Source: Aptenodytes patagonicus
Lineage: Eukaryota > Chordata > Aves > Sphenisciformes > Spheniscidae
NCBI RefSeq assembly: GCF_965638725.1
Contig: NC_134962.1
Span: 2,859,501 to 2,923,500 of the forward strand
DNA length: 64,000 nucleotides
Direction of reading: 5' to 3'
Notes under the pieces: generated by a model
What the model saw: only the letters and a program-made list of their open reading frames with translations
Told to the model about the DNA's origin: nothing
Database searches by the model: none
Position numbers and translations under genes: made by a program
In this document: positions 1,430-40,500 of the stretch, one piece after another
How the letters are laid out: each line of letters begins with the position of its first letter
Position numbering within the stretch: the first letter of the stretch is position 1

Positions 1430-1555
1430 TCATTCAATGGCTTCCATGACTTCCATCACGAGAGTTCGTGGGCCTGTCATGATGAGGCTGCTGATGGTCT
1501 GATAGTCCAGATGCAAAACATACATACCATTCACTGAGAAAACAAACTGGCACAC
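1430..1555 (-). CDS. DEPTOR-like: DEPTOR-like exon 9, second half of PDZ and stop
   Basis: 126 bp including TGA at 1432-1430. Acceptor ctccttgcag|GTG. It encodes VCQFVFSVNGMYVLHLDYQT and ends PRTLVMEVMEAIE. The end of the DEPTOR PDZ is conserved, but the last residues differ (human ends EELEC). Confidence 0.92.
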   Translation of the reverse strand: MCQFVFSVNGMYVLHLDYQTISSLIMTGPRTLVMEVMEAIE

Positions 1556-4500
1556 CTGCAAGGAGAGGAAGGGCAGGTTACCTTCAGCTCATGTCTTCGT
1601 GGCAACTTCTGCCCGTGACTGGCTAGAGCCAGAGGCTGCAATGCAAATAACTCGCTACAAAACCCTGCAAACCCTAAAGCGTTACCACTCCATAAGCTCC
1701 ACTAATAATCACTGTGCTACGATCACTATATCATAAAAAAGGGACCAAAGGGATTTAGACTGTGAGCTAACAGAGAAAAGACAGACTCATTTATGAAAAG
1801 TGGTTCATTTCACAGATGGAAATGAGGCACAATATTAACATCTACCAATTTGGTAGCAAATGAGATTAGGTAAGGAGAAATTAACTGGGCTCTTGAGTAA
1901 ATGAAACAAATTCATCCATCCCCTTCCAATCCTGCCTGAAGCAAACAAGGAGTCACACTCTGCCTCTGAAGAATCCCATTATTTCAAATACCCAAGTGAC
2001 TTTAGACTTATATCAGCTTGTAGAAATTACTCCCTCGCTGCTGGGGTTTTTATACGGAACTGTGAAACTCAACATTTCTTTCATTCACGCCTAAAACTCT
2101 ACACACAAAACCCGTACATGCCTGGGTCTAAAATGAGTTTCAAAACCTCAGTTCATTTCACCTGAGCTGGAAATACTGGAAATTACTTGATGAATCAAAT
2201 CAAGGCATCAGTCTAAGGTTATTAAGCTTTCATGTACATGGAAAATAGTTCCACGCAGAACTACATTGTTAATAGCAGAGAAACACAGAAGGCGTTACAT
2301 CTCAGGAGCTGTGAGAGCAGGTCACTCAGGATAAAGCTATACTCCTTCCCTGCTTCACTGGGGTTATGTACAGTTACTGGAGCTGAACTGGGAATTCTCT
2401 GCTTTGTTTTTAGCAGCTCAAACAGTTTTGACAGCTCCAAAGTCTACCACAGGGAGACAGCTTAGTTTTGACAGAGTTCTTTCAGCTTTAGCTGCCCACA
2501 GCCCCTGTGCTGCCCTGGCAAAAGGCAAATCCACCACCGCGCAGCCACACACAGTGCACTTTGCCTGGACTGATCTCCGCTGCAGGAGGTGGGATTGTCA
2601 CAGAGGATGTGTTCAGCCCAAAAAGCTCAAACAGGACATAAGTCCTGCCTCCTATTAAGTCACCACGAGTAAGAAGTACCTTCATCCCTGCAGCAGCAGC
2701 GGGTCCTCCTGGGTCCACTGCCTGGATGTGGCAAGGTCTTCCTCCTCGAACAACAAACCCCCAGCCCACCGCATCCCCCACAATCTACAAGCAGAACAAA
2801 AAGGGCTTTAAAAACCAAGGAATGGGCCAGATAGAGGAGATGCAACAGTTCCTAGTGAGATGGAAAGCTCTGCTCGTGATCCTAATCTGTCATGGGTGGG
2901 AGAGAGAGGGCTGTGCACCAAGTGAGATGCAGAACCACAGATTAATTGCTCTCTGCAAAGCTGCTTTCTGATTAATATTCCCTGCCAGCAAGTGCAGAAG
3001 AGTGAAGCACAGGCAGGATGAAGTTGAAGTGCAAGGCATGCACCAAAAGCATGTTGAGAACATTTCCAGAGCACGCACACGGTGCCTTTTCCTTGGCACA
3101 GGAGAGCATTTCCAGGGTGGAAGTAGCCACTCTTAATTTTTTCCCCACTCTGATCTCAGTCTGTCAGAGCAGTTTGCGGTAATACTGTGGCCATCTGATG
3201 TGACTAAAAGGGAAAAAGAATTCCCAAAGGACTTTGCACGTTATCCATATAAATAAATAACAGCAACTGCACAGCTAAGCAGAAGGAAATGAGCCATGAA
3301 AGGCCCAGGCTGGCAGAGTTGAAGGGCAGGGCAAGAGCGTTCAGGAGGAGAATGAACGGCACGTCCTCATACATGCCACACTAATCACCAGCTTTATTTT
3401 TCTTGCTCCTTCCCACCAATTTCTACAGCACAGTTAATTTGGGAACCTGATCCACAGCTCCTCTGTAACCCCACTTGTGTCAAACCAGTACGGCAAGACA
3501 GTCCTCACGCTTCCTAAACTGGCCACTGTGAGATTCCCCCTTTCAAAGGCGGGCAGGAAAGGGCTGAGAAGTTTTACACTAAAATAAACAAGCGTGATAG
3601 GATCCACAGGGCAGGAACTGTCTCGCAACGTTCACACCCAGCACCTACCAGCCTTGCCTTGACTGGTCATGCAGCTTTAGAAATAATTAGAAAAGCAAAA
3701 GCCCAAAGCTCAGGTTGTCTGCAGCATCTTGGAAATTTTGCAGTGTGTTTATTTTGTCCGTGAAAAAAGCCCATCATAAGAAAGGCAAGAGTGGCCCTTG
3801 GATGCTCCCCGTTCCGTGCTGCTCCACCAGGTGCTGATGGACCATATCAACATACCTGATCTGCAGCAGGAACCTGAAAGATGCATAAAGCTGTGCATAA
3901 AGGTGATAGCTGTGTGACAGAGGGTCTGTGTCAAAGTCTCAACTGTCACAAGACTTGACTGATTCTACAGTTTGTATGGAGTTTTTCTGTCCAGGAAACA
4001 TTCTCTTTCCTGATCTACCCCTTTAACACACATTAAACTAAAGCAGAGGCTGCGCACATTTCCACCCACAAGAATATCTGCAGACATTGACCCACTGAGA
4101 CTCACCAAGAAAGAGCCGTGATGATGTGACACACAACCAAAATTTCAACATACAGAGGTCAGCGCAGCAGACAGAAAGCTATCAAAGAGCAGTCAGAGAG
4201 CTCACTGCTGTGGGGTTAGCAATACCATTCGCTATGGTCACTTACAGTTAGCGTTTTCTTGATGTAGGGGGCCCCAGGGGACAGGAGCTCTTCATTGGTG
4301 ACGGGTCTCTCTAACACTAGAGCAGAAGGTGACAGATCCTATCAGAATCAAGGGTTTCATACAGTAAAGTGCACAACGAGGCAGCCTGGGGATTACCATG
4401 GGCTGGGGAACAGATGTTAGAACCAGCCGCGGTTACTGCACACAGAAACCTTTGCATTCCTCTCAATGTTTTTCAAAACACTTGCACAACTTGCACAAAT

Positions 4501-7500
4501 CAAGACTCAGAGGTGAGGCTGACCCTCTCCTCTTGTAAGTCCCCAAGCTGACAGCGGATGGGTTTGGACCTGAGGCTTGAGCTAGCCCATGCCCTGAAGG
4601 AATAGATGCATCCTGTGCAACGACAGGGCAATGCGGAAGCCCAGACCTGATTTAGGGTTGCACTCAGCCACAGGAGGGAATACCAAAGTAGGAGTAGTGC
4701 TGAAGTAGGGGTTGGAGTTTCCAGTGAGGGAAGTGATGCTGCTCCTTCGAACCGCTGAGACAATTTTGATCTCCTTGTTGGTCTGGACTGAAAGAGGGAG
4801 AAACAACAGTTACCCAAGGAAGGAACAGACTAGTTTAAAATAACAAACCTCCCCCACCAGCCTGACCCGTATCTGAAAGGTAAGCGTGCACTGAAGATGG
4901 CATGTGAGCTTAGAAAGAATAAAACTAGCTTCAAAGAAAAATCAAAAGCCGATGGTAAGTTGAGTTATTTTCCTGGGATGGGGAGCTGTGATAGAGACTG
5001 CCACTGCATCGTGACATCCACCACAAACCAGTGGGATGGGTGGTCACTTCATGGGATGCCTGGAGGAACACCCTCCACTCTGCTGGAGCAACACCCTCAG
5101 CTCTAGGATACTCTGGTAATGTAATCCTTGCTTTCACACCCCTCCACAAACACATCCACGGTTACCAGAGAGAAAGCTGGTGTTGCCTGGGTCTGGGTTG
5201 AGCTTGCGAAGACAGAAGGGACTGTCCGGGCTCTCGGAGAGCGCGCAAGAGGAGTTCTCGTTGAGTAACTCCGTGAGACGACGTCTCCGTCGAAAGTTGA
5301 TCCAGAATTGGTAGAGGATGTCACTGTCAAAGAAGTGATGCCTATTGGAAACTAGGAGAGAACAGGAGAGGAGGGAGAGGGTGAGGGGGTGTGAAAAATA
5401 TATAGCGAATATACTGAGGGACCCAGATGAATTGCTTTTAATGCCTCTGTGTTCTACTGCAGTTTTTCTGACTGTTTGAGAATGCTGCCTGCAGGGAAGG
5501 AGGAAGAGCAGGGCCACCTCCCCAAGAGATGTCATCTCCCAGGGGTGCACCACCAAGTCACAGCCCTCCACCTGCCCCTGTCCCAAGACACTCAGAGGAC
5601 TCCCTGCCTTCTGGATTGAAAGTTTAATTCCTGCAGATGGTTATGATCGCCAGCCAAGCGGAGCTGAACAATACATCCTCACAACCCAGCCCTCCAAACC
5701 CAGGGGTGGATCCCAGTCCTGCAGCCGGAGGCTTTGAAGAACTGAAGAGCAATAGCTCAGATTTCAACTCAAAGCCTTTATGGGTAGCGGAAGATTGCTC
5801 CAATTTCAAAGGTCACCAGCTCCAAACATAGAACTAAAAGGCCCCATTGCCATCTCCAAGTGGGCACTTGACCAGCACTTGTTGCATGACATGAATGGGG
5901 ATTTGTTCCTAGCACAGCCTTGACAACTACGCTTATCTCTTGCTTTCCATCCCAGCTCCAGCCGGAACCTCACTCACCATGCTGAATGATCCCATGCTCC
6001 AGCAGCGCCCGTCCCAGCTCCACCGCTTCCTTTCGGTTCTCCGCTTCTCCCTCCTGAACGAGCCAGTCAATCATCTCGCAGCCCAGGAAAGTCCTCTGGT
6101 ACTTCACAGAGTTCTCCTCTCTCACCTTCAGAATTGACTCTTCCACGCTTACCAGCCTGGCACAGAGGTGGGACAAGGCTCCCGTGATGCTGTATAGCCC
6201 TGCCGTCTGACGCGGGCTGCAGCCAGCCAAAGCAAGGCCAAGAGAAGCGAGCAAAACGTTACAGCCAAAACATTGCTGCCTGGGAGCAATGGGAAGGGAG
6301 GGAGAAATGCAGAGCTGCAGTCAGGCAGCTCTATAACTCCTCATCACAGCAGAGGAAGAAGCTTCAGCGGAATCAGTTCAGCTGCGACCTCAGCTCAAGA
6401 CCGAAGGGGAAAGCCAAGCAAGCAACTGAATGCACGGGACAAACGGCCGATAGTCCAAATTGATGGAGAAGGTGCGTTTCAGGAAACACATATTCAGTTT
6501 GCAGCATATGCGAGAGCTAAATCCAGTGCCTCCACGAGAGGGTGCAGCGGGCTCAGCCATGAGATGCGCTGGATGCTCTCCCCGGTCCCACGGCCACTGC
6601 TGCCAAGCAAAAGCAAAGCACAAGGGAGGCACGTCTGCCAGAGGGTCACGGAGACAGCCGAAATCGCCGCCCACCTGGCTGAAGGACTTCTCCCTCAGTG
6701 CCAGTTTGTGAATCTGATTGCCAGGGTTTGAGGATGGAGAAGATGTGAAGAAGCTGTTAAAGGTAATGGGTCCAGAGGGTGGTCTGTGGTTGAACCCAGT
6801 CTAACAAAATGACTCGTGAGGTGCCTGGGAAGATGGCTTGGATTTAGAAACAGAAACAATCAACACAAAGAAAACTGAACACTGGAGATGGAGGGAGTTT
6901 TCTTTACTGTCTGAGAATTAGATTTTCTATTACAAATTTTGCAGATAGGCTAAGCAAGATGCAGGGATCCAGGCCCATGAGGGCCCTGAAGATCCTATAC
7001 CCTGCTGATTCTGGTAGGACATAAGTCCTAATAGTGCTGGTGGAAGCAGCTCACCCAGGGAGGCCGGGGGAGTGCTGGGAATGGCCACTGGACGTGCCCG
7101 TCCCGGGAGCACTCAGACTGCAGACTGGACCCTAGCACTTCCCTGTACCAGACCCCAGAACCTGCACTTGGGTTGGAGCCCTTGAAAGCATCCACGAGTT
7201 CAGGGTACAGCTCCTGTCCCAGCCCCAAAGAGGCCGGTTGTCCTCTGGCTGCGACAGGGCTCAGGAAACAGCATTTCCCAACGCTACAGCACAGGGTACA
7301 GAGAAGGAAGAGAAAAGCCAGCTGTAGCTGTGGCTCCCAGCTGTAGAGCATCATCAGCAAGCACAGCCAGCACTCCCAACGCCCCTTGCTGAGAGTTATT
7401 TTGCAGGGAAAGGACTCACGTACTTCTCATAAAGACTCTGCCCTCTCATGAACACCTTCACGTCCTTATTGAGCGGGAAGGTCCCGTCATCCTTACGGAA

Positions 7501-10500
7501 GCGGTACAGCAGCTTGGCATCCTTGTAGTCCGAGTGCTCGTCGCAGACTGAAAGGAGTTCAGAGCAGGGATGTCAGTGCTGCAGGCGTCTGTCAGTCTGT
7601 AAGGGACAGACAGAGCTGCACGGAGCACAGATTCAGCAGGGTGTCATCTCCACGTTAAAAGCTATGGGGGCTGCGTGCGATGTCCTTCTCTACGCCCCTC
7701 GTACCATGGAGCAACCAGCATCTGAGCCTTCGGTCCCCAAACTAGGTGCTTACGAATGCCTGCAGCCCATGCTGGTGGGAGAGGTCAGGCCCGCTGAACA
7801 GACCTTGGGAAAGCTCGAGTTTGAGTCTACATTTGGATTCAGACACTAAAATGTTCATTAGAACAAACTGGGAAGTTTTTTGGTTTGTTTTTTTTTGTTG
7901 GTTTTTGGGGTTTTGGTTTTTTTTTTTTTTTAATTAAAAGTTGATGTTTTGGTTTAGACTATGAGAAGACAAACAGAATTGTCTCAATCAGCTTTTTTTA
8001 GAAAGCTACTGCCACATGTAAGTAAACTTGGAGGACGGGAGGAAAAAACCTACACTGCATCCAAAACCCCATAAAATCACCTCTGTCCCTGTCAAAAATA
8101 CTTGTAAGCTAAAATGTATAACGACACCAAGTTTTCAACACCATTTCGTGCCAGCCCTGCCCAATTCGTTTGCATGGCAAACTGATCTCAAGAGAAAAAA
8201 CACTTTTCTTCAAAGCTAGGTGCATACAACTGGAATAATCAAATCTGTATGAAAAGCCTCAGTTTCATCGCGGGGATGAGCACACAATCTGTAAATGCAT
8301 GGCTGTTAAGTGCATGCAACATTTAGCAGGTAAATATTTGGGATACAGCTGTGAGATAAGCTTGCCTGCAACAGATTCCTAGACTACGCATCAAAAAAAA
8401 AAAAAAGAAAGAGCCCCAAAATCACAGTCCAGCTCTTAAATCAGTCAGCCTGCCTTTCTTCAGGTCCACCCGTCTGAAGCAAGAAGGAGAAACTTCAGCA
8501 GTAAAAAAAAAAAAAAAAATTAAAAAAAAAAACCCACCACACCACACAGAGTAAAGAATATGCCCAGAAAACAAAGAAAATTAGTCAAAGGGGAAAAAAA
8601 AAAACCACAAAGATTTCCTCGCTAAAGTGACATAATCCACTAGAGTGGAATTCAACAGACGTAAGATATTTCTTGTGAAAATTTTAACACTTGTTCATTC
8701 ATCTGAGCGGACTGGCAAAACTTCGTTCCCCTTTTGGTGAGCAGCTCAACGCTAAAAACCGTCAGATTATCTGGAGTTCATCATTCCTCCTGAGCAGTTG
8801 TCTTGGTGTGAAATCAGGATGCTAAAGCCCATGACTCATCAAGCAAGAAGACCGGTCAAGAAAGTTGTTTTAAAAGATGAAAGTTTGCATCTTAACAACT
8901 CCAAGGAGCAACAATTCAGATGTCATTGCAACCGGGAACTGAACATAAAACCTTACAGGACTGTGCCCAAAGCATTTTTGCTATTTGCAGACCAATTCCA
9001 ACGTGTTTCCAGCATGTAATAGAATAACAGCTCAAACCACATCAGACCGTTAAGAGGCAGCACAGACAACGATCTTCGTGAGATAATTATCGTCTTCTGG
9101 ATCACAGCGGAGAAGAGGGCAAACAGTTTGGACAGCCAATTGCGAAGCACTCAGCACAGCGCTGCGGTTAGCAGGCAGCCCTGTTTCCACAGGACTAAGG
9201 AAAATTAATTGTCGTAAGGCAAGTTGGAAAGTCAACTTCTGTGTCCTGCCAGAAATTATCACAGAAGCAGGAGGGACGCGTCCGTGATAAGCAATCAAAA
9301 CAGCACCGGTACCCAGTACTGCACAGGTTTAATTAACTAATGGATTTCTTTGAAACTGTAAGCTGGAGAGATGGAAAAATAATCAGGTTTAAGTATTAAT
9401 GGTTAACTGAGAACTCACTGCTTCAGCTTTACGCTTTTGTGATAAAGCACAGCAGCAGTTTATTTTTATTCAAGGCAGCTTGATGTAAAGGGCATTAACC
9501 TCAAGCAAGTAGCAGATGGCAACAGAGAGTGTTTGCATTGCAGTGGTCCAAGGCAGCTATGTCTGGACCCTAGAGAAGAGGGGGGAAGAGAGGGCTGAAT
9601 TTGGTATGGTGGTCGCCTGCTTCTGCCTCCCCAGCTTCATCCTCTTGTGACAAACTGCCACCCAACTCCAGGTTACCATAGCTCATGTCCCGAAGGCTTG
9701 GAAGCAAGAGAGCTCAGCCAAGAGTCAGCAGCTCAGCCACAACCCTTCCCACCGAGAGCGGTGGTCTCCCAGGCCTGTTTGAAAATCCAGGACTTTTGTT
9801 CCTGATTGGGCCTGAAAAATCACACGGAGAGAAACTGCTCTTTGCTAATATGAAGCAGTTGTTTCCCATTGTTATATCAGGACCAAGGGCCAGACCGTGG
9901 GGATTGCTCTGCAGCTCAGGGACAGGCACAGACCACAGTACACGACCTGAGTTAATGCAAAACTGCTGAAAGCGCCAAATAATTTTTAAAAAGAACAAAG
10001 CCTGAATACTTGGCTTGAGCACCAAGCTGCTTTTTTTCCTCCCCTTCCTTTTTCTTTCTGTTTTTATTTTGTTTTACTTTTAACAGGTTCCACGGACAAG
10101 CCTTTGAAATGGCATCACACACTCAATTTCCAAGGGAGGCATTCCTACAGGATTGCTTCAGCTCCAGGTTTACAGGTACCAGATGACTTTTCGCTTTGAG
10201 TGGTGTTGACTCCACACCCTTACTTGTCCCACCCCAGCATGGATGGGGAAACTGAGGAACGCTGGGCTCTTACAGTAAAAAAAATGAACTTTCCTGCAGA
10301 TGTGAAGCATGTGCTATCATTCAGCTTCCACTTCTGCATGACACAAACATGAGCTAGACCAGCTTCTGTAAAAGTATCCACCACTGACTGCCCATGCAAT
10401 TGCTGTAGGGCAACATAGGTCAGGCATTACTGAACTTGCTTTCAAACAAGAGCCACTTCAGATGCTGTTTTACCAGTGCACAGCCCAAGTCCCTTTTCTG

Positions 10501-13500
10501 TGGGGCAGGGAACTGGCACATCCCCCAAAACAATGCAGCTTCACACAGATCCAACCCCATCCAGCCTCGTGCCTGCCCATCATCTCCCAGCTTCGCCAGG
10601 AGCCCTCACCCATAGGAGGGTCGTGAACAGGGACCTGACCATGCTTCTGTATCCTGGGCTGAGGGACACACGTGGTGACCAGATACACAGCCACCTCCCT
10701 GGGGAGGCTCAGCAGGTAGCAGAGAAACCCACGCACCGTGATGGATGATGTAATGGTCCATTAGCTTCTGCATGAGGCGGATGCCCGTCTCTCGGTCCGG
10801 TGCTTCTTTGTGGTCAATCAGCCAGTCTGTGAGCTCCTTCGCCACGAAGCAGTTTGGGTATGTTCGGAGGTGGTAACGTCTGTCCTTAATGAGCTTCCCA
10901 TCGTGGAGGCGAAGCCTAGAGAGAAAGACAGCCATTGTAGCATAGCTGGTGTTAACAGGGGAATTTGGGTCTAACAGCCCAGCGTCTGCCCAACCTGGAG
11001 AAACCGCTTATGATTTGGGACTTCTGGCAAGCACCCAGTGACTTATAAATTCAACCAAACCTCTCGGCTTTGCAAGACTGCATCGGTCAACCCTAAGGAG
11101 CCTCTCCACCATCCCCTTCTCTCCTCCTATCACTGCGCAGGTTATATAATTGCCTGCACCAGACTTAGTCTGAACCATACGTGTCTTTTTGTTCTAAACA
11201 AGCCTCTAGAAAATACACAGCAGCTAACCGAAGCTTGTGAAGAAGGGCCAAAACACAGAAAAAAAAAATAGTAGTACATATATTTGTCATCTTGGCATGA
11301 TTCTGTGTCTAGTTCTCCCTCCCCAAAACCATGAAAGCGGGAACGTAGCTACCCCCAAGGCCAAAGTCTTAGTCATAGCTCAGGGTGGGAGCAGGAATGG
11401 AAGCACTCGTTTCTTCTGCATGTGTCTAAGAGATGAGTGCCAGGTGGATCCCATACACTACCTACTAATCCATGTACCCACTAATCCACAGCAACAGTGA
11501 ACAACAGTCCTGACATTTTCTGGTTCAGATTGGGATAGACTGGGACAGAGTTTACCAAAACAACAACCGTCCTGTCCTGAAATGCCTGACATTATGGCTA
11601 GTCAGTGACTCCGACAGAAAGATATGTCTGGGTGAAGGTTACTCAGGTGAGTACGGCTTTGACTTTTCAAAGGACCTTAACAGCTGAGCAAGCCACAAGG
11701 CACAGAGATCTTATATGTTCAAGCCAAAGCCAACCCAACTTGGCAGGAGATCTGTCCAGGAGCCAAACTTTTGCCCTGTAGTCATGACTGTTCCCAAAAT
11801 ACTAACCCTGGAAAATGCCCAGTGCATGCAGCAGACTCAGAGGGGAGATATTAATTAAACATCTCCTCTGTAACTCCAGGATGTTTCTGGTTTCAAGTTA
11901 TTCATTTCAATTCACAGTTTTGCCCCAGGCCAGCATGTTTTGCAAAGGCATTAATCACTGCAGCCTTTCTTTAATTAATGCCTCAAGTTCTTTTGTTCTT
12001 TTTGAAGAAGTTACGTCCAACATGCTGTGTTGTACACAACAGTTTCAGGCACCATACGAGAAGTTTTAAATATCCTAAAAATCTATCAGATAATAATGGA
12101 TTATCCTATATTGTAGGATTTACAAATACTAGGGTCTCAAAAGTCTTAAGATAAAACCTTTTGTTGGATGAAGACTTAGTAATTGATTGTTGTAATTAAT
12201 CCTGAGGCTGCTACAAGCCAACATAATTCTTAACAGATATTTTCAGTCCTTCCTGGTAACTAAAATACTAAACCAAAGATTCATGCAGAACCAGCTCCTG
12301 GCCTTGCCTTTGACAGGCCTCCCTCAAATACTGAAGTCTATATTCAGTATTTTACTCTCTTTACCTGGAAGGCTCATTCCCACAAGTGACCAGCAGTCAT
12401 TCTGCATATGGATTTTACCTGAAGAGAACAGTCCACAGACAGCTGCCTGCTATTTTTAGAGTTTTTAGCTTTTTCATTCCTTTATTTCATGGTCCACTGT
12501 CAAAATGCAATCAGACACAGTCAGCAGCAACTGCAAACAGAGAGGCTCCCCACCCCAACATCCCTCTGCTATGGGAGAAGACAAGCAGTCATTTTTTTAT
12601 ATGCTTTCTTTCCTTTGTAATCAGCAAGTGGGATGCCACTTTAGAGGCATGTTTGGTAGAGATAAGAAATGTACCGAGAGTACTCTATTGCTATCAAGAG
12701 TCTTCAGGAGTCTGTAAAGACTAAATATACGCATACAAATAAATACCCACACACACACATCTTCATGCACAATAACACAGAGACCATAATCACACAAGCC
12801 CTGAAGAGAAACTGGTTGGGTGAATACTATTTCCCCTATAGGTCTTTTTTTATCACGTTTCGGGATACTGCAGAAAATGCACAAATCTTGGGGGGGGGGG
12901 GGGGAAGAAAAGAAAAAAGACTTTCAGCAAACACTAGTACTAAAACCTAGGATTAAAAAAAAAAAAAGTCAAAACTACACTTATTCTGAAACTATTATAT
13001 TGGGAACAATTGCCAGGATAGGAATTAAGTGGTATTTAAGCGCCTCTAGAGCAGCAGTGCTTAGACCTTCTTTTTTTTAAGTTTGTGACAAGTTTGCCCT
13101 CTTGCCCGCAGACCCAGGGCAGCAGAAGATGCACAGCTCGAGCGTCCTTGTGGTCTTTTCACTTTCCTCTTGTTTACTGTCTCCCATCAGCTACGAGGAG
13201 ACAAATTCTGTCCTTCAGACACAGAAGGACATAACACCAACTGCGTCTTCGAACAGCTCAGCTGACACCCTCTATAAACCAGTCCATGTACGATGTGGCA
13301 AAAACAAAGCCAGTGAAACCATGAGTGGTTTATAATCATGCTTCCAGATAAAAAAAATTAAGGAAGGATGTATAATGCAATATTATGAGTTTTCTAGATG
13401 CCAAAACCTACCCCATGTACATACTACTTTTTCAACGGGGGGAGAGGGGGGAAAGCAGAATAATACAAGGATAAAATGCTTGCTGGAACATGCGAATCGA

Positions 13501-16500
13501 CTCTTATGAAACACTCCTCACTTGGCAGTCGGCGCGCTGCTTTCTCATGCATTTGCTTTGGGTAGGCTGCATTGGGTAACCAAATTGTTTCTTTGTCAAG
13601 GTCACTAAAAAGACATCATTATTCATCCTGTGTAACCTTGTTGAAAGGGAGATCCGCAGCACTGTAAATAGAAGAGGGGAAAAAAAAAACCAAAACAAAA
13701 CACAAACTTCTAGGGAATCAAGAGTTTAAGTCACTTCAGCTGTTACAAGCGCAGCTCCTCCGGCAGGCCAGCATTTTCCCAGCAGCGTTACAGATGTCCA
13801 CTGCTGGAGAGCAACCCAAGGAGCTCCTCTCTTGGTTACTTCTGCCTGTTCACATTTCACGCAATTTCAGAACAGAGTCTGAATCAGGGGCTTACGCCGA
13901 AGCAAAGGGCTTTCTTGTATTGGAAAAGTTGCTACTTTTACTGTATGGTAGTTGCACAGCCAGAGCGGTCCCTAAAGCGATAGCTATTCTGCACCAAGAA
14001 CTCGCACGCGCCTGCACGGAGTGGGAATGTCTCCCTGGGGCGCTCTCCATCACCCCCTACCCACGTAAACAGACCTTGAGCACCTCAAATGCCAAGGCGG
14101 ATCTTTCAAGGATATTAACTCCAGTTCACGTTCCCAGTTAAGTACAAACGAATGGCCCTGGAAAGATGCGTCACCCAAAGGATCTTTTCTGTTCCTGTCT
14201 TTACAGGAGAAAAAAAAAAAAAAACAACAACGCACATAAAACAACACCCAACCAACCAAACAAAAAACTGAGCAAACAACTAAGTGCTCAGTAAAAGGCG
14301 GCAACAGCCACAACTGCGTATCTGCAAAATAGCTGCTGGAGAGGCACATTCAGGCAAAAGGACTGCTGCACACAGGCTCAGCAAAACCCAGTTTGCTGCA
14401 CTCCCAGTCTGCAAAAGCACCAGTACATCCCGGGGGAGAGGGGAGAGCTTTGCACGCCCGTGGCAGCCCAAAGTGGCACAGAGATGTTTTATTTCCCTAC
14501 TTGTGTTTAAACGTATGTATAGGAAAAGAGGACTTAAATCTCAAAAAGAAATCCCGGCAAGCACAAGTCTACTTCCCAGTCCTCACTTCCACCAGTGCTG
14601 AAAATTTAATAATAGGCTTTTTAAAGTCATTCTGATCATGTAGTCTCGCCTTCTGAACAACGTTCACCTGGTGACCGCCACATCAAGCGGTGTCCCACGA
14701 TTCCTCCAGAAAGACGTCCCCACTTCAAGAGATCCAAGTTCAGCAGAGAACCACCAAACCTCCTGTAGACCCAAGATTTTTGGGCCAGGAATACAAATTT
14801 TGGCATGTTCAGCTACACACCTTTAAGTGAGCCAAATTCCCAGAGCATCAAAGTATGAGCATGTTATTTAACAGCGTCTCAATTTGAGCATCCGAATAAA
14901 ACACTCAGCACCTTTGAAAATTTTGGACAGTAGCTGAAATCATAATTTTGTTCTTCATAGGAGAAAACCTTCCTTCTCCTCTCACTTTTTTCGCCCAAGA
15001 CATAAATTTACCGAGTACATTTTACATTGAAGAGTGATTAATGCAGCTTAACAGAGTTATTAGAGAACAGCTGGTTCACTTGACCACGAGGAATACCCAG
15101 AAGAGAGTGCACAAGGACTTGTCTATACTTGAGAAACTCAGATTACAGCAGGGTGTGAATTCAAAACACGGTAGCTGTTCCAGAATCTCTCCCTGCAGAT
15201 AAGCCATTTGTTGCAATTAGAAATGACTAATTGGGCCTCTTTTACGGAATGCCACCCAGGAACACACAATGCCCAGTAAAACTAGTGTGATTTTCATGCA
15301 AGTATATACGTCTGAAACAAAAAGACCAACAGCAGGAGATGTGAGGAACGAGCCTGAGACAGCAGCCCTTTCAAACCCAAGAACAGAATATCAGTGGAAA
15401 TTATCTTCATCTTTTTGATGGGGAGAGAATCAAGACCCAAAACTCCTCTTCCCCCTCCATGGACTAGAAAGCACCATCCCCGTGGAAGCAAAGGGACCCT
15501 GGCAGACACAGAGCCCGAAGCAGAGCATCCACTCTCCCCTCGATTCCTTTAGGATCTGGTTTGTTCCCAGCCATCCCCACGAAGCATTCCCTCACCCCTT
15601 GCTTGTGCAGCTCCTTCTGGCTGGGAAACGCATCCTGACACTGACCAAACTCATCCCTCCAGCCAAACCAAACTCAGAGGGATTTGCAAACTTGCTGGGA
15701 AGCCAAAGAACTGTAAAGATGGAGCAAAGGTTTGTTTGGTTAAATACAATAGCGGGGAGGCAGGGCAGGAAGTGGAGAACAGGGAAAAACAAATGTTTGA
15801 GATTTTACGAAGATACAGCAGCGTTATTTGCTGATCGAGGATTACAGAGTCAGGGCAGACCGCGAGGCTCCTCTACATGCTTCTTTATTCCTTACCTGGG
15901 GAAAAGCAGGGGAGCACAATGCAGACATTTAGCCCTGCCCCATCTGCTGTTGCCTGAGGCATCATCCAGCCTCTCTGCCTCAGTTTCCCCATTGCTACCT
16001 ATTGGACATCCAGGCCCCAGGAAGATTCATATCACTAACTCCTTACCTGCCAGGCTGCAAAATCCCCAAAATACCAGAGACAGACTCGAGCATTCAGCAT
16101 GCTCTGCTCTGCATCACTCTATTCTCCTTTCAGCCAGACGAGCTGCAGGGGAAGGAGGAGCCCAGCTGCAGGGTGGTGTCCATCTCTTCACCCTCCTCCC
16201 CGGGTTTTACACCCCGTGCTGGCCAGCGGCTCCTTCCAGTCTTCCCAGACCAAAGCAGAAGGATGTGACTGCCGTGTGCCAAGCCACCAGCAAAAGGACC
16301 CACCTCTCCATCACCGTGAGCGCTGGGTACTCTGGCCTCCTCCCTTGGCATTTAGACCTGCTACTCGCAAACACAGCTGAAGAAGAGAGCAGTCCTGCCG
16401 GATGAAATCCACCTGCTCTTCTCCATGCAACAAAGAGCCTGAGCCTTTCAAGAGCAGGTCAGGGGCATGAAGCAGTCAAGGCCTCCCAAAGGCAGTTCAG

Positions 16501-18773
16501 GTCTGCTCCCCGAGCTGCAGTGTTTGCAAAACAGCACGTGTCTCCCAGCATCACGGTTCTAGTGTATGCCGGCCTCTGAGGTGAGAGCTCTCGCCTCTCC
16601 TCTCCACTCGTACGTGCTTCCTACCCCTCCTATCACCCCTTCCAGCAGAGAAAACCCACATCAGGTTCACCTTGGGGTAGCAAACCGAACAGGAGCAAGT
16701 AGTTCAAGACTGCAACCTTCTGCGATGGGCTTGGCCTGAAAACTCTCAGATTTTGGGAGCTCCCTAACTGGGAAACTCCAAGGCACACCAGCTGGGGGGG
16801 GGGGGGGAAGATGGGTGCCCCAAAAAGTACATATTTTGGGGGTTTTCTATTCAACTTTATCCCAGTCACACTAATGGAAAGCTATTCCCTCCCTGCACAA
16901 ATCCGGCCTCCCTTCAGGCTTTTAGCATCCTTTCCAAAGGCTCAGGGTGCATTCATGCTGACAATAAGGAGTAAAGTTTCCAGACAAATGCTGGGCGGAA
17001 AAAATGAGTTGGTATTATTGGTTTTCAGAAGAGTGTGACATTTGTACTATGCCTTTACCTTGCTTATAAGAACTAGCATAGTGTGCAGTATACTAGAAGA
17101 GCTCTGTTCACAAACAGATTTATTGTATCCCCTTCTCCTCCTTACAGTCACAATTGCCAGATGGTCCAGGATCTGACATGTTCCTCCTGTCCTGCAAAAG
17201 GCACGAGGAAGCCACATCATTCCCCTTGCAGGCACACTGATCAGTTTTAAACACACCTTGATTATTTTATTTTCTCTCCGAATACCTGCCCCCCTCCTTT
17301 GGCCCAGACTATAGGACCCATTTTAAACCTCAGTCACTCCAGAGAAGTAAAATGCTGGAAATATAAATATGAATAAGCCTGCCCCGGCCACAAGATGGAA
17401 AAAGTCATAACTTTGCCTCTTGCACTGAGTTATTGAAATGAGGCAAGTCCCTCTTAGATCAGCTGCTGCTTTTCCCTATAAGAATGTTAAGCTCGTTTTC
17501 AAAGCCTTGCTTACAACATGGACTGCAAACACTGCAAAGGCAGAAAGGTTGATGCAGCCTCCACCCCCAACAGCAGCTCTCCCAGGCACTACCTAAAGAA
17601 AAGATTTAATTTCTGGAGCTAGAACAGTAATATTTGTGAAAGACAATAGACTGGAAATGTGGCTAACCATCACTACATATTTAAAATCCAGCCACTTTGG
17701 TCATTAGCTGTGTCTTCAAGATAGGGCCCTAATCCTTAGCTGGGAATTATCAATCCTTGATACAGTGCAAATAATAAAGCTAAGGCTAACAGGACTCACT
17801 GAGAATGGGCAACATAGCGACACAGAGCTAATTTTATGAATCTGATGCTAGCAAACGTGGGCTCTGCGCTCTTTATATTATTCAAGGGTATGTTTCCTAT
17901 TTTCCACCCACATTTCAAAACAAAACAGAATGGCTCCAGATACAAACAAGTAAACTCTGCTCAAGAGCTAGAAAAGCCTACAGTCACATGCTTAGAAGAA
18001 AGGGGGGGGGGGGGGGGGGGTGTCTGACCCCAGACACACAAGGAACAGGTTTTCTCAGCCACACAGGTTTTCTTGCATAGGAGAATATATTCTGTCTTCA
18101 TAAGAAAAAAACCTCAAAAGTTGCTCAAGAACTGGAACTACAAACCAGCAGAGGTTCCCAAAAGTGACTTTCAAGAGAGGGAAGACCCTACACGTTGGTG
18201 TGCAAAACAATTCAGGTGCATGGCACCCATGGGACGACCTCCCAAATCACCCCCAAAAGTCTGAATGCCCGCAGAGGCGGTGCTGTCCCCAGCCAGCCAG
18301 GGACCAGGAACCTTGGGGACGCTGCTCAGTGTCACTACATCAGGCTCTGGGTTTAAGGGAGGATGCAAAGGGATTAAAAAAAATCTGTCACCATCCAAAA
18401 GCACCTGCCAGTCCCCTGGCACCTGGAGGTGGAGGGCAGGAGATGTCCAGAGAGGAGCAGCAGGACAAGGTAACATGGGAAAGGACCTGGTTCACTGATG
18501 GTTTGGTGGGCAAGGGAAGCATCAGCAGATACTGGGGAGGGGGAGACACTAGCGCCTGGGGAGGAAAAGCGTTTGCTCAAGGATAAAGCTTTGAGCCTCC
18601 CGCTAGCGGCATGCAGTCCAGAGCCCCAGGAGCTAACCCTGGGCACAGCCCTGCCCCAGCCTGGAGGAGGGCCCCATCACCTCCTACCTCAGTTGCTCTC
18701 CAGCAATCATCACCTCTGCCCTGTAGTGCTGCTCCGTGGCTTTCTTCTTCAGGCTGTTGCTCAGGCTCTCCAT
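1430..18773 (-). CDS. DEPTOR-like: DEPTOR-like protein (two DEP domains plus PDZ), 398 aa, 9 coding exons
   Basis: Coding exons, 5' to 3': 18773-18688, 10915-10737, 7547-7424, 6156-5978, 5351-5166, 4787-4647, 4316-4246, 2784-2680, 1555-1430. They total 1197 bp with all phases matching, giving 398 residues and TGA; human DEPTOR has 409. DEP1 lies at about residues 29-125, DEP2 at about 138-215, a Ser/Thr-rich linker at 216-320 and the PDZ at 322-398. Shared hallmarks are YPNCFVAKEL, DWLVQEGEA, NFRRRRRL, EIKIVSAVRRSS and GDAVGWGFVVRG. In DEPTOR the PDZ binds the mTOR FAT domain and the DEP tandem also contacts mTOR, inhibiting mTORC1 and mTORC2; that role is inferred here. Compared with human DEPTOR from memory, many positions differ, more than I expect for a bird ortholog, so I call it a paralog. 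Start: the ATG at 18771-18773 is the first in frame, with G at -3 and G at +4. The next gene upstream is ARFGAP1 on the same strand. Confidence 0.9.
2680..2784 (-). CDS. DEPTOR-like: DEPTOR-like exon 8, first half of PDZ
   Basis: 105 bp, phase 0 at both ends. Acceptor cttgtag|ATT and donor ATGAAG|gtactt. It encodes IVGDAVGWGFVVRGG, the PDZ carboxylate-binding-loop region with GWGF at 329-332, followed by PCHIQAVDPGGPAAAAGMK. Confidence 0.93.
4246..4316 (-). CDS. DEPTOR-like: DEPTOR-like exon 7, linker before PDZ
   Basis: 71 bp. Acceptor ctgctctag|TG and donor CTAACT|gtaagt. It encodes VLERPVTNEELLSPGAPYIK, closely similar to the DEPTOR segment leading into the PDZ domain. It ends in phase 0. 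Confidence 0.9.
4647..4787 (-). CDS. DEPTOR-like: DEPTOR-like exon 6, regulatory linker
   Basis: 141 bp. Acceptor ctctttcag|TC and donor AAATCAG|gtctgg. It encodes residues 252-298, with NKEIKIVSAVRRSS followed by a Ser/Thr-Pro region and CNPKS. The segment that in DEPTOR carries the beta-TrCP degron SSGYFS reads SNPYFS (276-281), so the second serine and the glycine are replaced. Confidence 0.9.
5166..5351 (-). CDS. DEPTOR-like: DEPTOR-like exon 5, end of DEP2 and start of linker
   Basis: 186 bp. Acceptor tctcctag|TT and donor CTCTCTG|gtaac. It encodes VSNRHHFFDSDILYQF, then WINFRRRRRLTELLNEN and DSPFCLRK. Human DEPTOR has Arg-Met where this protein has Trp-Ile immediately before NFRRRRRL. 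The conserved DSPFCLRK marks the beginning of the regulatory linker. Confidence 0.92.
5978..6156 (-). CDS. DEPTOR-like: DEPTOR-like exon 4, core of DEP domain 2
   Basis: 179 bp, the same length and entry/exit phase as exon 2. Acceptor gtgccag|G and donor CAGCATG|gtgagtg. It encodes SVKYQRTFLGCEMIDWLVQE, GEAENRKEAVELG and LLEHGIIQH, matching DEP2 of DEPTOR. Confidence 0.93.
7424..7547 (-). CDS. DEPTOR-like: DEPTOR-like exon 3, end of DEP1 and inter-DEP linker
   Basis: 124 bp. Acceptor ctcctttcag|TC and donor GAGAA|gtacgtgag. It encodes CDEHSDYKDAKLLYRF, RKDDGTFPL and FMRGQSLYE, the last strand of DEP1 and the linker found in DEPTOR. The alternative donor four bases downstream would break the phase into exon 4. 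Confidence 0.92.
7548..10736 (-). other. Intron 2 of DEPTOR-like gene (3.2 kb)
   Basis: Non-coding. It holds a T/G-rich low-complexity patch at 7874-7937 and A-rich runs at about 8390-8610. The other DEPTOR-like introns (6157-7423, 5352-5977, 4788-5165, 4317-4646, 2785-4245, 1556-2679) show nothing recognisable beyond their splice sites. Confidence 0.75.
10737..10915 (-). CDS. DEPTOR-like: DEPTOR-like exon 2, core of DEP domain 1
   Basis: 179 bp. Acceptor tctctctag|G and donor CATCACG|gtgcgt. It encodes residues 29-88, including IKDRRYHLRTYPNCFVAKEL, DWLIDHKEAPDRETG and DHYIIHH. These correspond residue by residue to DEP1 of DEPTOR. Confidence 0.93.
10916..18687 (-). other. Intron 1 of DEPTOR-like gene (7.8 kb)
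   Basis: Bounded by gtagga and tctctctag on the minus strand. It contains A/C-rich low-complexity sequence near 14209-14278 and three long G runs (12890-12904, 16794-16807, 18002-18020). It also holds an unexplained long open frame on the opposite strand at about 15482-16405. No known gene is recognised inside. Confidence 0.8.
18002..18020 (+). repeat. Poly-G run, 19 nt
   Basis: The longest G homopolymer in the window, in intron 1 of the DEPTOR-like gene. Such runs can form quadruplexes and are prone to sequencing-length error. Confidence 0.9.
18688..18773 (-). CDS. DEPTOR-like: DEPTOR-like coding exon 1
   Basis: Encodes residues 1-28 plus two bases of codon 29 (MESLSNSLKKK ... IAGEQL). The donor is CTGAG|gtagga. 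The GEQLR motif just before the split codon matches the DEPTOR residues preceding DEP1. The rest of the N-terminus shows no resemblance to the Gly/Ser-rich start of human DEPTOR, so this end of the protein is poorly constrained. Confidence 0.8.
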
Positions 18774-19120
18774 GCCGGACTGGAGGTGGGTGGCGGTGGG
18801 GAGATGCGCCCGGGGTAGCAGGGAGCGCCGGGCGGCCCCGCACACCCCATGGGATGCGGGTCGCAAAGATGCTCGTCCCCAGCGCGGTCCCCAGCCCGGC
18901 TGGCAAGGTGCAGGTAGGCAGCCTGAAGTTGCTGGCTCCAGCTCCTCCTTCCCTCTCTGTAGTCTCTGGAGGAGGAGCCTGCTGCAATCTGATCCTGGCT
19001 TCGCTGGTGTCTCACCCGCCGTCTCCAGCCAAGCCTCAGCTGAGAGCCGGGAAGGCGGCAGGTCTGCTTTCCAGCCGGCTGGGGACAGTGTCCTTTCTGC
19101 TTGCTCTGTGTAGACGATTC
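18774..19120 (-). promoter_or_regulatory. Probable 5' UTR and promoter of DEPTOR-like gene
   Basis: A GC-rich, CpG-bearing stretch immediately upstream of the start codon, densest at about 18780-18910. No TATA box is evident. The transcription start cannot be placed from sequence, and an upstream non-coding exon is possible. Confidence 0.45.
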
Positions 19121-19273
19121 CAGCAGGCTCCGGGCATACACAGGCTGTAGGATGAGTGGTTTGATTAGCAATAACATGGACAAAGCACTTCCTTCCTTAT
19201 GCTGTAACTTTCCTACAAAGGGTTCAAGATGTGCTATTCCCTGATGCAAGCCATGTGGCTTGCTCCCAGCCTC

Positions 19274-19560
19274 TTAGAATCATAGAATAGAATAGTTTGG
19301 GTTCGAAGGGACCTCTAAAGGTCATCTAGTCCAACCCCCCTGCCCTGGGCAGGGACATCTTCAACTAGATCAGGTTGCTCAGAGCCCCGTCCAACCTGAC
19401 CTTGAATGTTTCCAGGGATGGGGCATCCACCACCTCTCTGGGCAACCTGTGCCAGTGTCTCACCATCCTCAGCGTAAAAAATTTCTTCCTCATATCCTCT
19501 TCCCTAGGGGCTTTCCACCTCTCCCCAGAGCGGGCTGCATCCAACACCATGGCCAACGCT
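19274..19560 (-). mobile_element. CR1 LINE 3' fragment
   Basis: The plus strand reads as the reverse complement of a CR1 tail. At 19274 there is aatcatagaatagaat (the CR1 3' microsatellite reversed), followed by the standard CR1 3' region. The minus-strand frame encodes the end of the CR1 reverse-transcriptase ORF (HRLPREVVDAPSLETFKV). The element is strongly 5'-truncated. It lies about 0.5 kb upstream of the DEPTOR-like start codon and has the same orientation. The exact left boundary of the element (near 19560) is approximate. Confidence 0.9.
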
Positions 19561-34523: not shown

Positions 34524-37500
34524 CTTTTATGGGGGGGGGGGGAAAAAGGAAGGTAGAATTAAATTAGTTATGACAAACATAACAATAAAAATAAATGTCC
34601 ACAAACAAAAAAAACTGTAATGCTACTGCCCTTTGCTTAAACAACAACTGAGGATAAAGGCAGGAAGAATTAAATATATTGCTCCGAATGGCATAAGCTT
34701 AAATTCTAATTCACAGATTTTTGTTAACAGCCTTAAGTACTAATAGGCCCAGAGCGAGGGGGTACGCATTTGGTGCCGTGCGCTGTTTTGTTCTCAGTTT
34801 AACAACTGTCATAAACAGTTAGATTGAATTCCTCCCGTGTTACATACAGGAGGACTACTAGCAGAGACAGAAAAATTTCTTCATATTTAAAAATTACCTG
34901 CTACTACTATACTGCAGAGAACGTACAGGAGATAAAATTATGTGTTTAAAGAGACACAGAAAATAATAACAAAAAAATACCTTTCAGAGTTATCATCTGG
35001 TTTGCCAGAAAAAAAAGTGGTGACGTCTCGCCATCCCTTACTTCCAACTCCCTGAACCTAGAGGAAAAAAAAAAAAAAGTCATTTGGACTGAACCAACAC
35101 CTCTTCCAAGTCCAACAGCAAAAGCCATAACACATTCCTCCACTTGTTCAGATAAAGAGAACACATTTCATCAGAAAATGTCATTCACAACTTCTTAATA
35201 TTTTTAACAGGCTGTTACGTGGTTGATGTAAGTAACATACATTTGATGGCATCGTGCTGCTGGAAGATGTGAAAAGTAGGTCAAGTTTAGCCTTTTCACC
35301 CATCATTGTCAATAACAGCTTTTGAATTCTCTCCTAGACTTCCTTGACAAAAATGCTGGAATTACTCCTTACATAAAATTAAACTTAATGACAGCACTGA
35401 TGTTTTGATGTTACGATTCATGTAACTAGTATTTGTTTTTCTACTGCTCTACAAAACTACTTTCACTCCGTTTCAGTAGTATTATTTCACTGCCCATGTA
35501 AAACAGGCCAAAAGTTGAGTTCTAGGATAAACATGACTGCTAGGAGAATCCTTTGAGGGTTATTATAATGGACTGGCGTTGGATTAGAAACACAAATTCT
35601 GAAGTGACACCCATGGAAGTTACTATTCTAAGTCATAGATACGGAGGATGAATCCCAGAATTCGGGCTTAAAGTTGCCAGGCTCTAAACAGAACAGGTAA
35701 CATCACTTATTTTATTCAAATATTCCCAACATTTAAGGCACTAAGCTCGTACATGATAGAGCTTCCAGTGCTGACTTTCACAGTGCTAGGAAGACAGACT
35801 CTCCTAGGTAACACCATACAAATTATCAAAATAGGTATTAGATTGTGCAGGACTTCTGTTCTTAGCAGTTGTAGAGAGCACTTACCACGTTACCAAGCAA
35901 TGATAGCAAAAGAAGACAAAGAAAAAAAGGTACAGAACATTAGTAAGTTCAAGCGTCCAAACATAACGCAAGCTGTCTCCATATTCTCTAGCAGACATTT
36001 TCTTTTTGTGTTTGGGACACCGGCTGTCTTAGAACTCTACATCCTGACGTTGGTGAAACTATTACGAGGACTACATCATACCTGTATAGCTTTTTAACAC
36101 CCCAACAGAAGTACTGCACACTGAAAATCATACTTTCAAAATGTCTGTATTCAACACAAGCAGAGACTAAAGCTGCATTGGGGTTTTGTTTCACTACAAA
36201 CTTTTCATAAGAATATGGAGACTGGCTTACTGTTTGGCCTCCTTAAAGGCAGGCAGGCCACTTCATACCTTGCTGGCCAACTGTGATACCCCCACGGTGA
36301 CCTCCTCAAATATTTTCCCCTCTTTCACCTATGTGAATCAAAGTATTGGTAATTAGTCATAAAATGAAGTGTTATTGAAAACTTAAGACAAGCTTACTTG
36401 TGCTCAACAGCTAAAGACAAAAAGTGTAAAAAAAAAAAACCCAAAGTGAATCAAAATATACTTAAGTCAAAACTAACAAAGTTAAGAAAACGACATATAA
36501 AGTCCATTGATCTATAATGGAGTGAACCTCAGTCCTTTGTGGGAATTGTCTATTGATATACATACAGTTTGAGGAAGGTATCATTACACTAATGCTGAGC
36601 ATAAAAACACCAGTACAAAAAAAAAAAAATCAGCAAATGAGACATTTTATAAATATATTTTACTATATAAAAAGATTTGGTTTGGAGGTATTAAAAACCT
36701 ATCAGAACTATTTTAGTCTCTATCTTTTTACATGGTTATTTAAATATTAAAAGGGCTTTGAACTTTGGTCAATCAGAACACAATTGGTGCCTTTCACCAA
36801 TTAATAAATGGCAGCTGTTCCAAAGCAAGTGACTTTATATACCCATATATGTGCCAGGCAGTGATCACTGAATACTTACTTCAGAAAGTAACACTTATTT
36901 AGAACTAACAGCACAACATCCTAAGGGTAATAGACCTTTTTTTTTTTAAATATAGAATGCAACATTCCTCATTAAATTGTCCTACAAAATAAAAATCAGC
37001 TCAAGAAAATGAACCCTAAAAATAACCCTGAAAATAATGCATCTAAGCACTCTGAAATAAGTTGTGGATAAATCTAGGGAATAGGAAACCAATTAAAGTC
37101 TTCTCCTGTGATTTGAAATGCTATGTAAAGAATGTTGAATTACTAAAGGTAATGCAAGAGAAATTATTTTGTAATATGATTAAACCATTCTTTTCAAATT
37201 GAATATTAATCCATATCCTAAAGTGGTGGCACTGCTTCTCTTACGAGAGCAAAATTAGTCTGCTTTATCAAAACCAATATATTTTGGGAAAAGGTACGTA
37301 GGTAAGTAGAGCACCACATTCTCAGAAAAGACTTATACAAAATGTTGGAGCTGATCCAAAGTTCTAGAAGCACAGAACAAATACATGCCAAACGGGGAAG
37401 ATGTAAAAGTACACTTTTTTTAAACATATGAAACAGGAAGGCAACATTTGACGCTAGGGAGAATCTTTGACTAAAATTTGTAGTATCAGTGATCTCTAGT

Positions 37501-40500
37501 CACTTATGAGGACTGCCTCGCCTTTTTTACATGCCCACTAGTGACTATCTGTATTTACTCAGGTCAGCATGTGTGCTTTCTTCCAGCTGCTGTTGGAAAT
37601 GCCATTAGCCACATGGCTCTGGTCACTAACAATTGTAAAGGGAAGATGAAAATCTGCTTCAAACTAGTTTCCTAGAAACAACACAGTAACTAGAACCGCT
37701 AATCAAAATGTTACTTTAGACCACACTTTGCATATGAATGCATGCAAAACTTGGTTTTAACCGACTACCGGAATATTCTGAACGAATACCAAATAAAAGT
37801 TGCAAGAACATGTCACTTCTATTGATAAGTTGTCCCCATTCATCTTAAACATATACTTTGCCCCAAATTCTACTGCCCCCAACGAGGCAGCAGATGAACT
37901 ATAGTGGCTCAAAGTTGCTTAGCTGAATTAAAATAATGCTGGCAGGCGGACAGGTAAAACACTATGAACTTAACACTCAAAGATACTACTAATAGGGTTT
38001 TTTTTTTAAATAACTGATTTTTATATCCATTTAGGGTGCATTTTCATCTTGTCCCATCTTCCATTATTGAAAGCATGAAATGTATAAAATAGTATCTAAC
38101 AGGGAAGAATGTAACAGGCTCTTGCGGACGTGAAAAAGATCAGCGGAGAGAAATTACGCTCATGAATCTTTCTTTGCTAACATACTAGCTTTAAATTATT
38201 TGATGTTTCCCCTTTGCTACTGTGCTAGTATATGAAAAAACAGAAGGACGCACTGACAAACTGGGCAGTTGTGGCAGGAGGAAACAATCACTCCCTAAGT
38301 CAGCATAACCATATTCTGCAAGTAATTTACTAGTTCCAAAGTTACCTTTTCCTGTGCAGGTTTGAGAACATTTTCATTTAATGTCTGACCTAACTCTGCT
38401 GCCTATTTAAAAGCAAAACAAAAACAAAGTCAGTTATATTTTCCTTTAAAAAAAACCCAAAAAAACACAGCCAACATCTTCTGCAGGCTAATTTCACAGC
38501 AGTATCTCCAAAGACACATGAAGCCTTAAACTTTGACTCATACAAGCAGAATGAGCTGAAAAGCACACACAGTACAGTGCTGCAGAAAACATTAAAAGAA
38601 AATAAATTAAAAACAGATGCACATGGCAATAGGTTGCTGGAGATGCCCAGAGCCCAAGCAAAGTCTGACCTTGCACTGAAAGCAGAAGGAATAGGCTAGA
38701 AGATGGGCCCCTTTCTAATGCCTGCAGCTGGATATTTGGAAGAACTGACCTCATCCACCTTTATTTTTCCTTACTAATGGAATTACTTGTAGAATTAGAT
38801 CTTTTTGGCCAATTTTTCACCAATTCTTCTGTCCTGAAGTGCTGCAATTGTCATCTATTAATAACAGCCCAATTGTTTCTAAGCAATACACAAGAGGCAA
38901 AGCTGTGACAGAAGATTTTTGTAATCTTTTTTACAGCTCCAGGTTTGCAGGGGGAGAAAACAACGAACTTCAGAAATCTACTGCAATCCAGAACAAGTAC
39001 TAGGATATTGTACTTCAGAGGCATCTTACAAAAATGTAAGCCCACAGTATAAGCCACAAAATTACTTTCATAAGACAATATTGACACGGACAAGAAGGTT
39101 TGCACATGTTTCATTTGAAATCATTCCTTTCCCTACTACCATAATAAGCCTTTGATTGATTTAAACTATTCTTCAGAATTGCCATATTATACTGATTACC
39201 TTCTGAATCAGCCCAATTAATCCAAAAGGGCCAATTTCCTTGTGAGACAAACATTATTCCTAAACATTAGCAGAGTCTAATGAAGTTTCATTTCCTAAGG
39301 GTTTATATCTTATCGCTAACATTAGTTGGGGTGTGAGCCTTCATTCATTCTTCCTGGGGACGGAGCACCTTGAGCATCTTTCCTCCACAAATTCCCAGGT
39401 GTCTTAAGAAGCCTTTCCCTTAGCCACAGCACTACTAGGATCTCCCCTCTACCCAACCACCATTATCTCCAATACTTCTACTCCTTACCAGTTCAAAGGT
39501 TATTTGAGAAGACAAAGGCAAAAGGTAACCCCATTTCCACCTAGTAAGAAACGTGAATGCAAATCACAGAAGGCTTGTTTCCATTGGAAGTGGGGCTAGA
39601 AAGTGTTTAAGAAAAATGAGAAAGGGGATTTTTCATCTTTGAAAAATCCTTCAGAGTCTATTAAACCTGGCAAACTGTTTATGTTCTAGAAAAGACTGTA
39701 ATACACTAACAGTTCAGGTATCCTAAGTGAAGTCATTACTAGAATCAGGAAGAATTCTTATATTATCCCATTTACTCAACCACATAATTTTGTAAATATG
39801 GAAAGGGAAGATTTAGGTACAATTGTGTTTCTGTCTGAATCACTTCTTCATCTTTACTATCGCTGAATTTAGGATAGCATCCTAGCCACCATTACAAACG
39901 CTACATAATGGGGCATTTATTAAAGAGTCTGCCTTCAAACAACACCCCAGGGTAGTTCTTGGTATACTGCATTCCTGGATCAGACATGCAAACGGAAATC
40001 CTGAAGTCATCTGTGTTTATGAAGAGCATGGACAAAAGTACAGCATGTTTTCTGAGAGTGCAGAGTTTGGATATCTCTATCCAATTTAACCTATTTTAAA
40101 TAGGTTTGAAGAAACATTACCATATGAAACACACAACATTATTCTAAACAGATTTGACTTAAGGCAAAAGAAGAAAAGACAGCTCAAGAGCAAATGCACG
40201 TATTCAGCACGAACAGCGACAAGGAGTCCATGCACAAGAATATATGTGAGGGCGTTACCGGCTCTGGCTGCTGCTTGTAGCCCCAAAACTTTACCCAGAC
40301 AGCAAAAGAGAAAGAGCAAGGAAGGTAGAAGCAGCTTTTAGCAAAAAATTGGCAGCATTTTTTCAGGCAAGTTAAGTAGCAAGAACCTTTTCCAACTTTA
40401 ACATCTACTGACAAGACAAACAGTGAATATGTTTGGTCACTGGACACCAAATATACTTTTAAACAATATATTACATCAAAAAGATGTTAAATCTGTTCTA

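Follow-up and report, generated by a model that had tools for sequence, protein, structure and literature searches.

The locus raises the question of whether the DEPTOR-type gene on the minus strand of a 64,000-nucleotide stretch of the Aptenodytes patagonicus genome is DEPTOR itself or a second gene of the same kind. This stretch, C14:2859501-2923500 (contig NC_134962.1), is referred to as the window. The tree, synteny, and exon structure show it to be an ohnolog of DEPTOR, a paralog from genome duplication that arose along with the adjacent collagen gene before sharks and bony vertebrates diverged. It belongs to a second, ancient DEPTOR subfamily, which is already present in databases under automatic names and was found in no paper.

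The gene was assembled by a splice-site scan and comprises nine exons, running from 18773 to 1430. All eight introns were of the GT-AG type, and the spliced sequence of 1,197 nt formed a single open frame encoding 398 residues and a stop codon. Accordingly, the nine-exon DEP-DEP-PDZ protein of 398 residues put forward in the initial annotation was exact. The exons and one short motif are as follows.

18688..18773, minus strand: exon 1, start codon at 18773-18771 (MESLSNSLKKK...); splice scan and assembly
10737..10915, minus strand: exon 2, DEP domain 1; splice scan, assembly and Pfam
7424..7547, minus strand: exon 3, end of DEP domain 1 and inter-DEP linker; splice scan and assembly
5978..6156, minus strand: exon 4, DEP domain 2; splice scan, assembly and Pfam
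5166..5351, minus strand: exon 5, end of DEP domain 2 and start of the long linker, with an SPFCLR patch; splice scan and assembly
4647..4787, minus strand: exon 6, long linker; splice scan and assembly
4699..4716, minus strand: SNPYFS, residues 276-281, aligned with the SSGYFS phosphodegron of DEPTOR; coordinates derived by hand
4246..4316, minus strand: exon 7, N-terminal extension of the PDZ domain; splice scan and assembly
2680..2784, minus strand: exon 8, PDZ domain with the mTOR-contact stretches DAVGWGF and AVDPGGPAA; splice scan and assembly
1430..1555, minus strand: exon 9, end of the PDZ domain and stop codon; splice scan and assembly

The protein shows the DEPTOR architecture of tandem DEP domains, a long linker, and a C-terminal PDZ domain. 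Two DEP stretches were detected in it by Pfam (E 1.9e-45), and only one when the gene region had been translated straight through; PDZ_6 scored 26.3 bits, 0.7 below the 27-bit cut-off. Residues 13-398 aligned to human DEPTOR of PDB 7owg (E 3.4e-181), which has 409 residues in the same domain order. The closest of the listed proteins was that of the emperor penguin (396/398 identical), and in the alignment the start codon at 18773 was common to platypus and shark relatives. The AlphaFold model had a mean predicted local distance difference test (pLDDT) score of 54, mostly 28-46 in the PDZ region, and was not used. A pseudogene was rejected because there were no stops and the splice sites were intact, and a processed copy because the introns were kept. 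The DEP-DEP-PDZ gene in the window was thus confirmed as real, well beyond chance.

To decide between DEPTOR and a second gene, the whole genome was searched with penguin DEPTOR and with the window protein. Two multi-exon DEPTOR-type loci were found, the window and C2:14301930-14375708; an additional weak match on C6, obtained with the window protein, was a single DEP domain of 40% identity. The assembled C2 gene was true DEPTOR, with 397 residues, 395 of which were identical to gentoo penguin DEPTOR. The window protein shared 279 of 399 positions (70%) with it, in line with the diverged second DEPTOR gene that had been claimed. The exon lengths were 86, 179, 124, 179, 186, 141, 71, 105, and 126 nt in the window gene and 86, 179, 124, 179, 186, 135, 71, 105, and 129 nt in C2 DEPTOR, with equal phase at every junction. 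Over 395 aligned codons, the two genes differed at 55% of the third positions and at 19% of the first and second positions, and the synonymous divergence (dS, NG86) was undefined, that is, saturated.

The neighbourhoods of the two loci were compared subsequently. ARFGAP1 lies 5' of the window gene on the same strand:

34980..51110, minus strand: ARFGAP1, residues 1-285 of P0021 matched by nine exons; 3' exons below 34980 unmapped

To the left of the window, on the strand of the window gene, lies a collagen gene whose nearest exon match is approximately 9 kb 3' of the stop codon. The best PDB match of its fibronectin domain was Collagen alpha-1(XX) (5kf4, E 2.5e-24), by which it can be assigned to COL20A1. 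On C2, a collagen gene was located approximately 31 kb 3' of DEPTOR and on its strand, its fibronectin domain matching fibronectin (E 8.6e-24) more closely than collagen XX (E 3.2e-20), and DSCC1 (Pfam Dcc1) was located 5' of DEPTOR at C2:14394522-14406283. The human order is DSCC1-DEPTOR-COL14A1, and from this order and the collagen domain matches the C2 collagen gene was inferred to be COL14A1. The neighbours typical of DEPTOR, DSCC1 and a COL14A1-type collagen, therefore flank the C2 copy and not the window copy, which stands between ARFGAP1 and COL20A1, and the 5' neighbours are unlike (ARFGAP1 versus DSCC1). Eight exons of von Willebrand A and fibronectin type were collinear between the two collagen genes, at 39-72% identity; they were taken from 15 flank-to-flank matches, with five repeats, one antisense match, and one out-of-order match set aside. 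Both neighbourhoods agree with the expectations of the initial annotation, namely a gene placed between ARFGAP1 and COL20A1, and a separate DEPTOR beside COL14A1. Its paralogon was borne out by the collinear collagen exons; retention in this lineage in particular was not, as relatives range from sharks to marsupials.

The relationship was further evaluated using a tree of 51 rows, consisting of 48 chosen from 220 search rows, the window gene, the DEPTOR of the same genome, and human DEPTOR. The clade of the window gene was separated from a DEPTOR clade of 24 rows, including the human and C2 genes, with split support of 100/100. The window-gene clade contained birds, a turtle, lizards, platypus, Tasmanian devil, opossum, a salamander, and a caecilian among tetrapods, and lungfish, ray-finned fish including nine teleosts, two sharks, and one ray among fish. 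Rows named DEPTOR-like or si:dkeyp-97e7.9 grouped with the window gene. Cartilaginous fish were basal within each of the two clades, and because they occur in both, the duplication predates the divergence of sharks from bony vertebrates. P-Rex1 and P-Rex2 share the order of tandem DEP and PDZ domains (E 2.3e-39 and 5.8e-42), but they are Rac exchange factors with chains of approximately 1,620 residues, and served as a distant outgroup.

Two other origins find next to no room in these results. The shared architecture, and the plain DEPTOR name carried by some NCBI rows, would fit a window gene that is simply DEPTOR, moved or misassembled; this has a negligible probability, being refuted by the full DEPTOR on another contig of the genome and by the approximately unbiased (AU) test, in which the window gene constrained inside the DEPTOR clade was rejected (p-AU 0.00044), in accordance with the tree check that the initial annotation had suggested. 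Equally, a recent duplication of DEPTOR in birds only, for which no support emerged, can be set at practically nil, as orthologs occur in sharks, fish, amphibians, and mammals, and a position of the window gene with the two penguin DEPTORs was rejected as well (p-AU 0.00018).

The range and constraint of the ohnolog were also examined. Relatives were listed from sharks, ray-finned fish including teleosts, lungfish, amphibians, reptiles, birds, platypus, and marsupials, bearing automatic names only ("DEPTOR-like", si:dkeyp-97e7.9) and in some cases the plain DEPTOR name. The gar query (best 120 of 646 matches) returned many teleosts, part of them under si:dkeyp-97e7.9. Among the best 120 of 665 matches of the Tasmanian devil query, a Monodelphis row was of the paralog type and no placental row was; the top placental row, P0104, was true DEPTOR. 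Six placental-named rows and two unnamed transcript rows were checked, and all were closer to DEPTOR. Placental coverage refers to protein listings rather than genomes, and proteins with less than 0.55 of the query length escape these searches; on this basis, the paralog was apparently lost in placental mammals. The identities between penguin and turtle (paralog 91%, DEPTOR 94%), platypus (86% and 92%), sawshark (79% and 84%), and gar (70% and 84%) show that both proteins are strongly constrained and that the paralog, which is intact, has been under long purifying selection. Two full-length relatives, P0044 and P0048, are probably spliced transcripts, because the contigs that carry them, which lack annotation, measure 1.8 and 2.6 kb and are too short for a gene with introns of this size. 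In Pogona vitticeps, P0016 and P0072, which are of the two DEPTOR types, both list the same longest contig of 240,931,457 bases, and the two types may lie on one chromosome in this species.

The conservation of the residues by which DEPTOR contacts mTOR was also determined. The relatives were sorted into paralog (151) and DEPTOR (72) rows according to which penguin protein was nearer. The contacts of the DEPTOR PDZ domain with mTOR are given as residues 336-342 and 354-362 in an excerpt of PMC8439657, and that of the linker as 304-308 in an excerpt of PMC8439649. The window protein was identical to human DEPTOR at 20 of these 21 positions. For a consensus outside teleosts, the fill filter left 134 of the 151 paralog rows, of which 77 were removed as the teleost set; the consensus of the remaining 57 equalled that of DEPTOR at 20/21 contact positions versus 249/347 elsewhere, with the stretches DAVGWGF, AVDPxGPAA, and CNPKS. 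Under a stricter filter (128/151 paralog rows), conservation reached 90% or more in both clades at 14/21 contact positions versus 141/347 of the other positions (Fisher p=0.023). Outside teleosts, the mTOR-binding PDZ surface and the linker anchor are largely kept.

The linker showed a different pattern at the phosphodegron of DEPTOR, which PMC8439657 describes as SSGYFS; according to an excerpt of PMC8551655, phosphorylation by CK1 and mTOR leads to βTrCP-mediated destruction of DEPTOR. The motif SSG[YF][YF]S was present in 70 of the 72 DEPTOR rows (exceptions P0091 and P0130) and in 0 of 147 paralog rows, with four of the 151 excluded from the count for linker gaps; the window protein has SNPYFS. 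A DEPTOR 13A mutant, in which 13 serine/threonine sites were removed, is also described in part of PMC8439657. The window protein keeps serine or threonine at seven of these sites and loses six (S265, S283, S287, S297, S298, and S299). Across the 147 paralog rows, S244 was kept in 146 and S263 in 139, and S265, S283, S287, S293, and S299 were mostly changed, S265Q being among the six near-fixed clade differences seen when teleosts are set aside. The paralog therefore differs from DEPTOR in lacking SSGYFS, in S265Q and other lost phospho-sites, in its separate clade, and in its place beside COL20A1.

Based on these features, we consider it somewhat more probable than the contrary that the ohnolog is a partial inhibitor of mTORC1 and mTORC2 that escapes CK1-primed SCF-βTrCP removal and was lost in placentals. 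The conserved contact residues suggest that its PDZ domain and linker anchor would dock on the FAT domain of mTOR, and that the DEP tandem and long linker would restrain the kinase, giving partial inhibition of both complexes. Because SSGYFS and several mTOR-phosphorylated serines are missing, the paralog should resist SCF-βTrCP removal, and would thereby escape this route upon growth factors. It would then act as a steadier mTOR brake, whose level is set mainly by its own expression; most of the jawed-vertebrate groups covered here have retained it, and placental mammals have apparently lost it. The wider proposal, that jawed vertebrates ancestrally had two DEPTOR-type mTOR brakes, one removable by βTrCP and one degron-less, with the second lost in placentals, is held tentatively, at somewhat less than even confidence.

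Several observations weigh against this picture. The paralog evolved faster than DEPTOR in all nine species pairs compared. In the 128 rows, the contact excess relative to the rest of the PDZ domain (31/66) was not significant (p=0.14), and V338 and G359 were mostly changed in teleosts, which form the majority of these rows. A loose degron-like motif occurred in 3/147 paralog linkers (P0071, P0145, and P0174), of which that of Chanos, SSGYS, is close to the real degron, and a different degron could stand in for the lost one. For coelacanth (two rows) and chimaera (one row), too, the matches listed comprised DEPTOR-type proteins alone; given the same pattern in these species, absence among listed matches does not prove loss. 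With regard to age, the P-Rex outgroup, on a very long branch (2.58 changes per column), placed the root within the paralog clade; this tree was not used for rooting, for which the ingroup tree and synteny were relied upon. No lamprey- or invertebrate-named row was present among the matches of three protein listings; DEPTOR is termed vertebrate-specific in an excerpt of PMC8439649 and is reported from a scallop in part of PMC11591371.

Some of these points would also fit other functions. The ohnolog might still inhibit mTOR and be degraded like DEPTOR via another motif, having been retained only for a different tissue expression (subfunctionalisation). The retained S244 (146/147) and S263 (139/147) agree with this, as does an exon 1 without a CpG island, which fits restricted expression; however, the exact degron in 0/147 rows and the changes at S265, S283, S287, S293, and S299 make it rather unlikely. 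Alternatively, mTOR regulation might have been lost, with the protein acting elsewhere, for example, in DEP-mediated membrane or phosphatidic-acid signalling. Compared with DEPTOR by region, the window protein was 78% identical in DEP1, 65% in DEP2, and 61% in the linker, the last two being the most different, and two contact positions were changed in teleost members, as this alternative would predict. It is nevertheless quite improbable, as non-teleost rows have DAVGWGF, AVDPxGPAA, and CNPKS as their consensus, and DEP1, which is 78% identical, makes most of the DEP-mTOR contact according to an excerpt of PMC8439649. Escape from βTrCP-mediated removal by a partial mTOR inhibitor thus remains the reading we prefer.

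Further observations concern the locus itself. No CpG island was found around exon 1 (window 18500-19249; GC 0.61-0.64, CpG observed/expected 0.37-0.48), and this lack suggests a regulated rather than a housekeeping promoter. Several bird predictions (P0002, P0005, and P0007) carry long N-terminal extensions matching window 23033-23179 and 18687-19273, upstream of the start codon, which are probably 5' untranslated sequence translated as protein. The UniRef entry P0021 (Crocodylus porosus) fuses ARFGAP1 residues 1-285 to a DEPTOR-like protein from exon 2 (window 51110-34980 and 10915-1430), either as a read-through transcript or as an annotation chimera of same-strand neighbours. A fragment resembling a CR1 long interspersed nuclear element (LINE) was seen by eye at window 19270-19586, and would account for the repeats matched between C14:2878796-2879086 and C2. 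Six-frame Pfam scans of the window from approximately 51 to 64 kb gave no match that would name a gene on the 5' side of ARFGAP1. KCNQ genes, presumably KCNQ2 and KCNQ3, were found on the contigs of both loci (C14, 2.70-2.72 Mb; C2, 8.95 Mb, at a distance of 5 Mb from DEPTOR) and count as paralogous neighbours, although further KCNQ matches were on C3 and C21, with weaker ones on C1 and C7.

In the open-licence literature, searches aimed at a DEPTOR paralog showed no study of one among the best-ranked matches. The term DEPTORL in PMC5404102 denotes the LoxP allele. DEPTOR-knockout mice are described there as viable and fertile, and if mice are without the paralog, it cannot explain this viability.

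DEPTOR is regarded as one gene, controlled by a degradation loop. A second, long-conserved copy that is degron-less would give birds, reptiles, amphibians, many fish, platypus, and marsupials an mTOR input that placentals appear to be without, and the testable difference expected between the paralog and DEPTOR lies in how each is switched off. The paralog is also a natural test of the purpose of DEPTOR degradation. For work on birds and fish, caution is necessary as database rows of both genes may share one name. If the reading of two brakes is true, the mTOR biology of human and mouse would be that of a reduced system.

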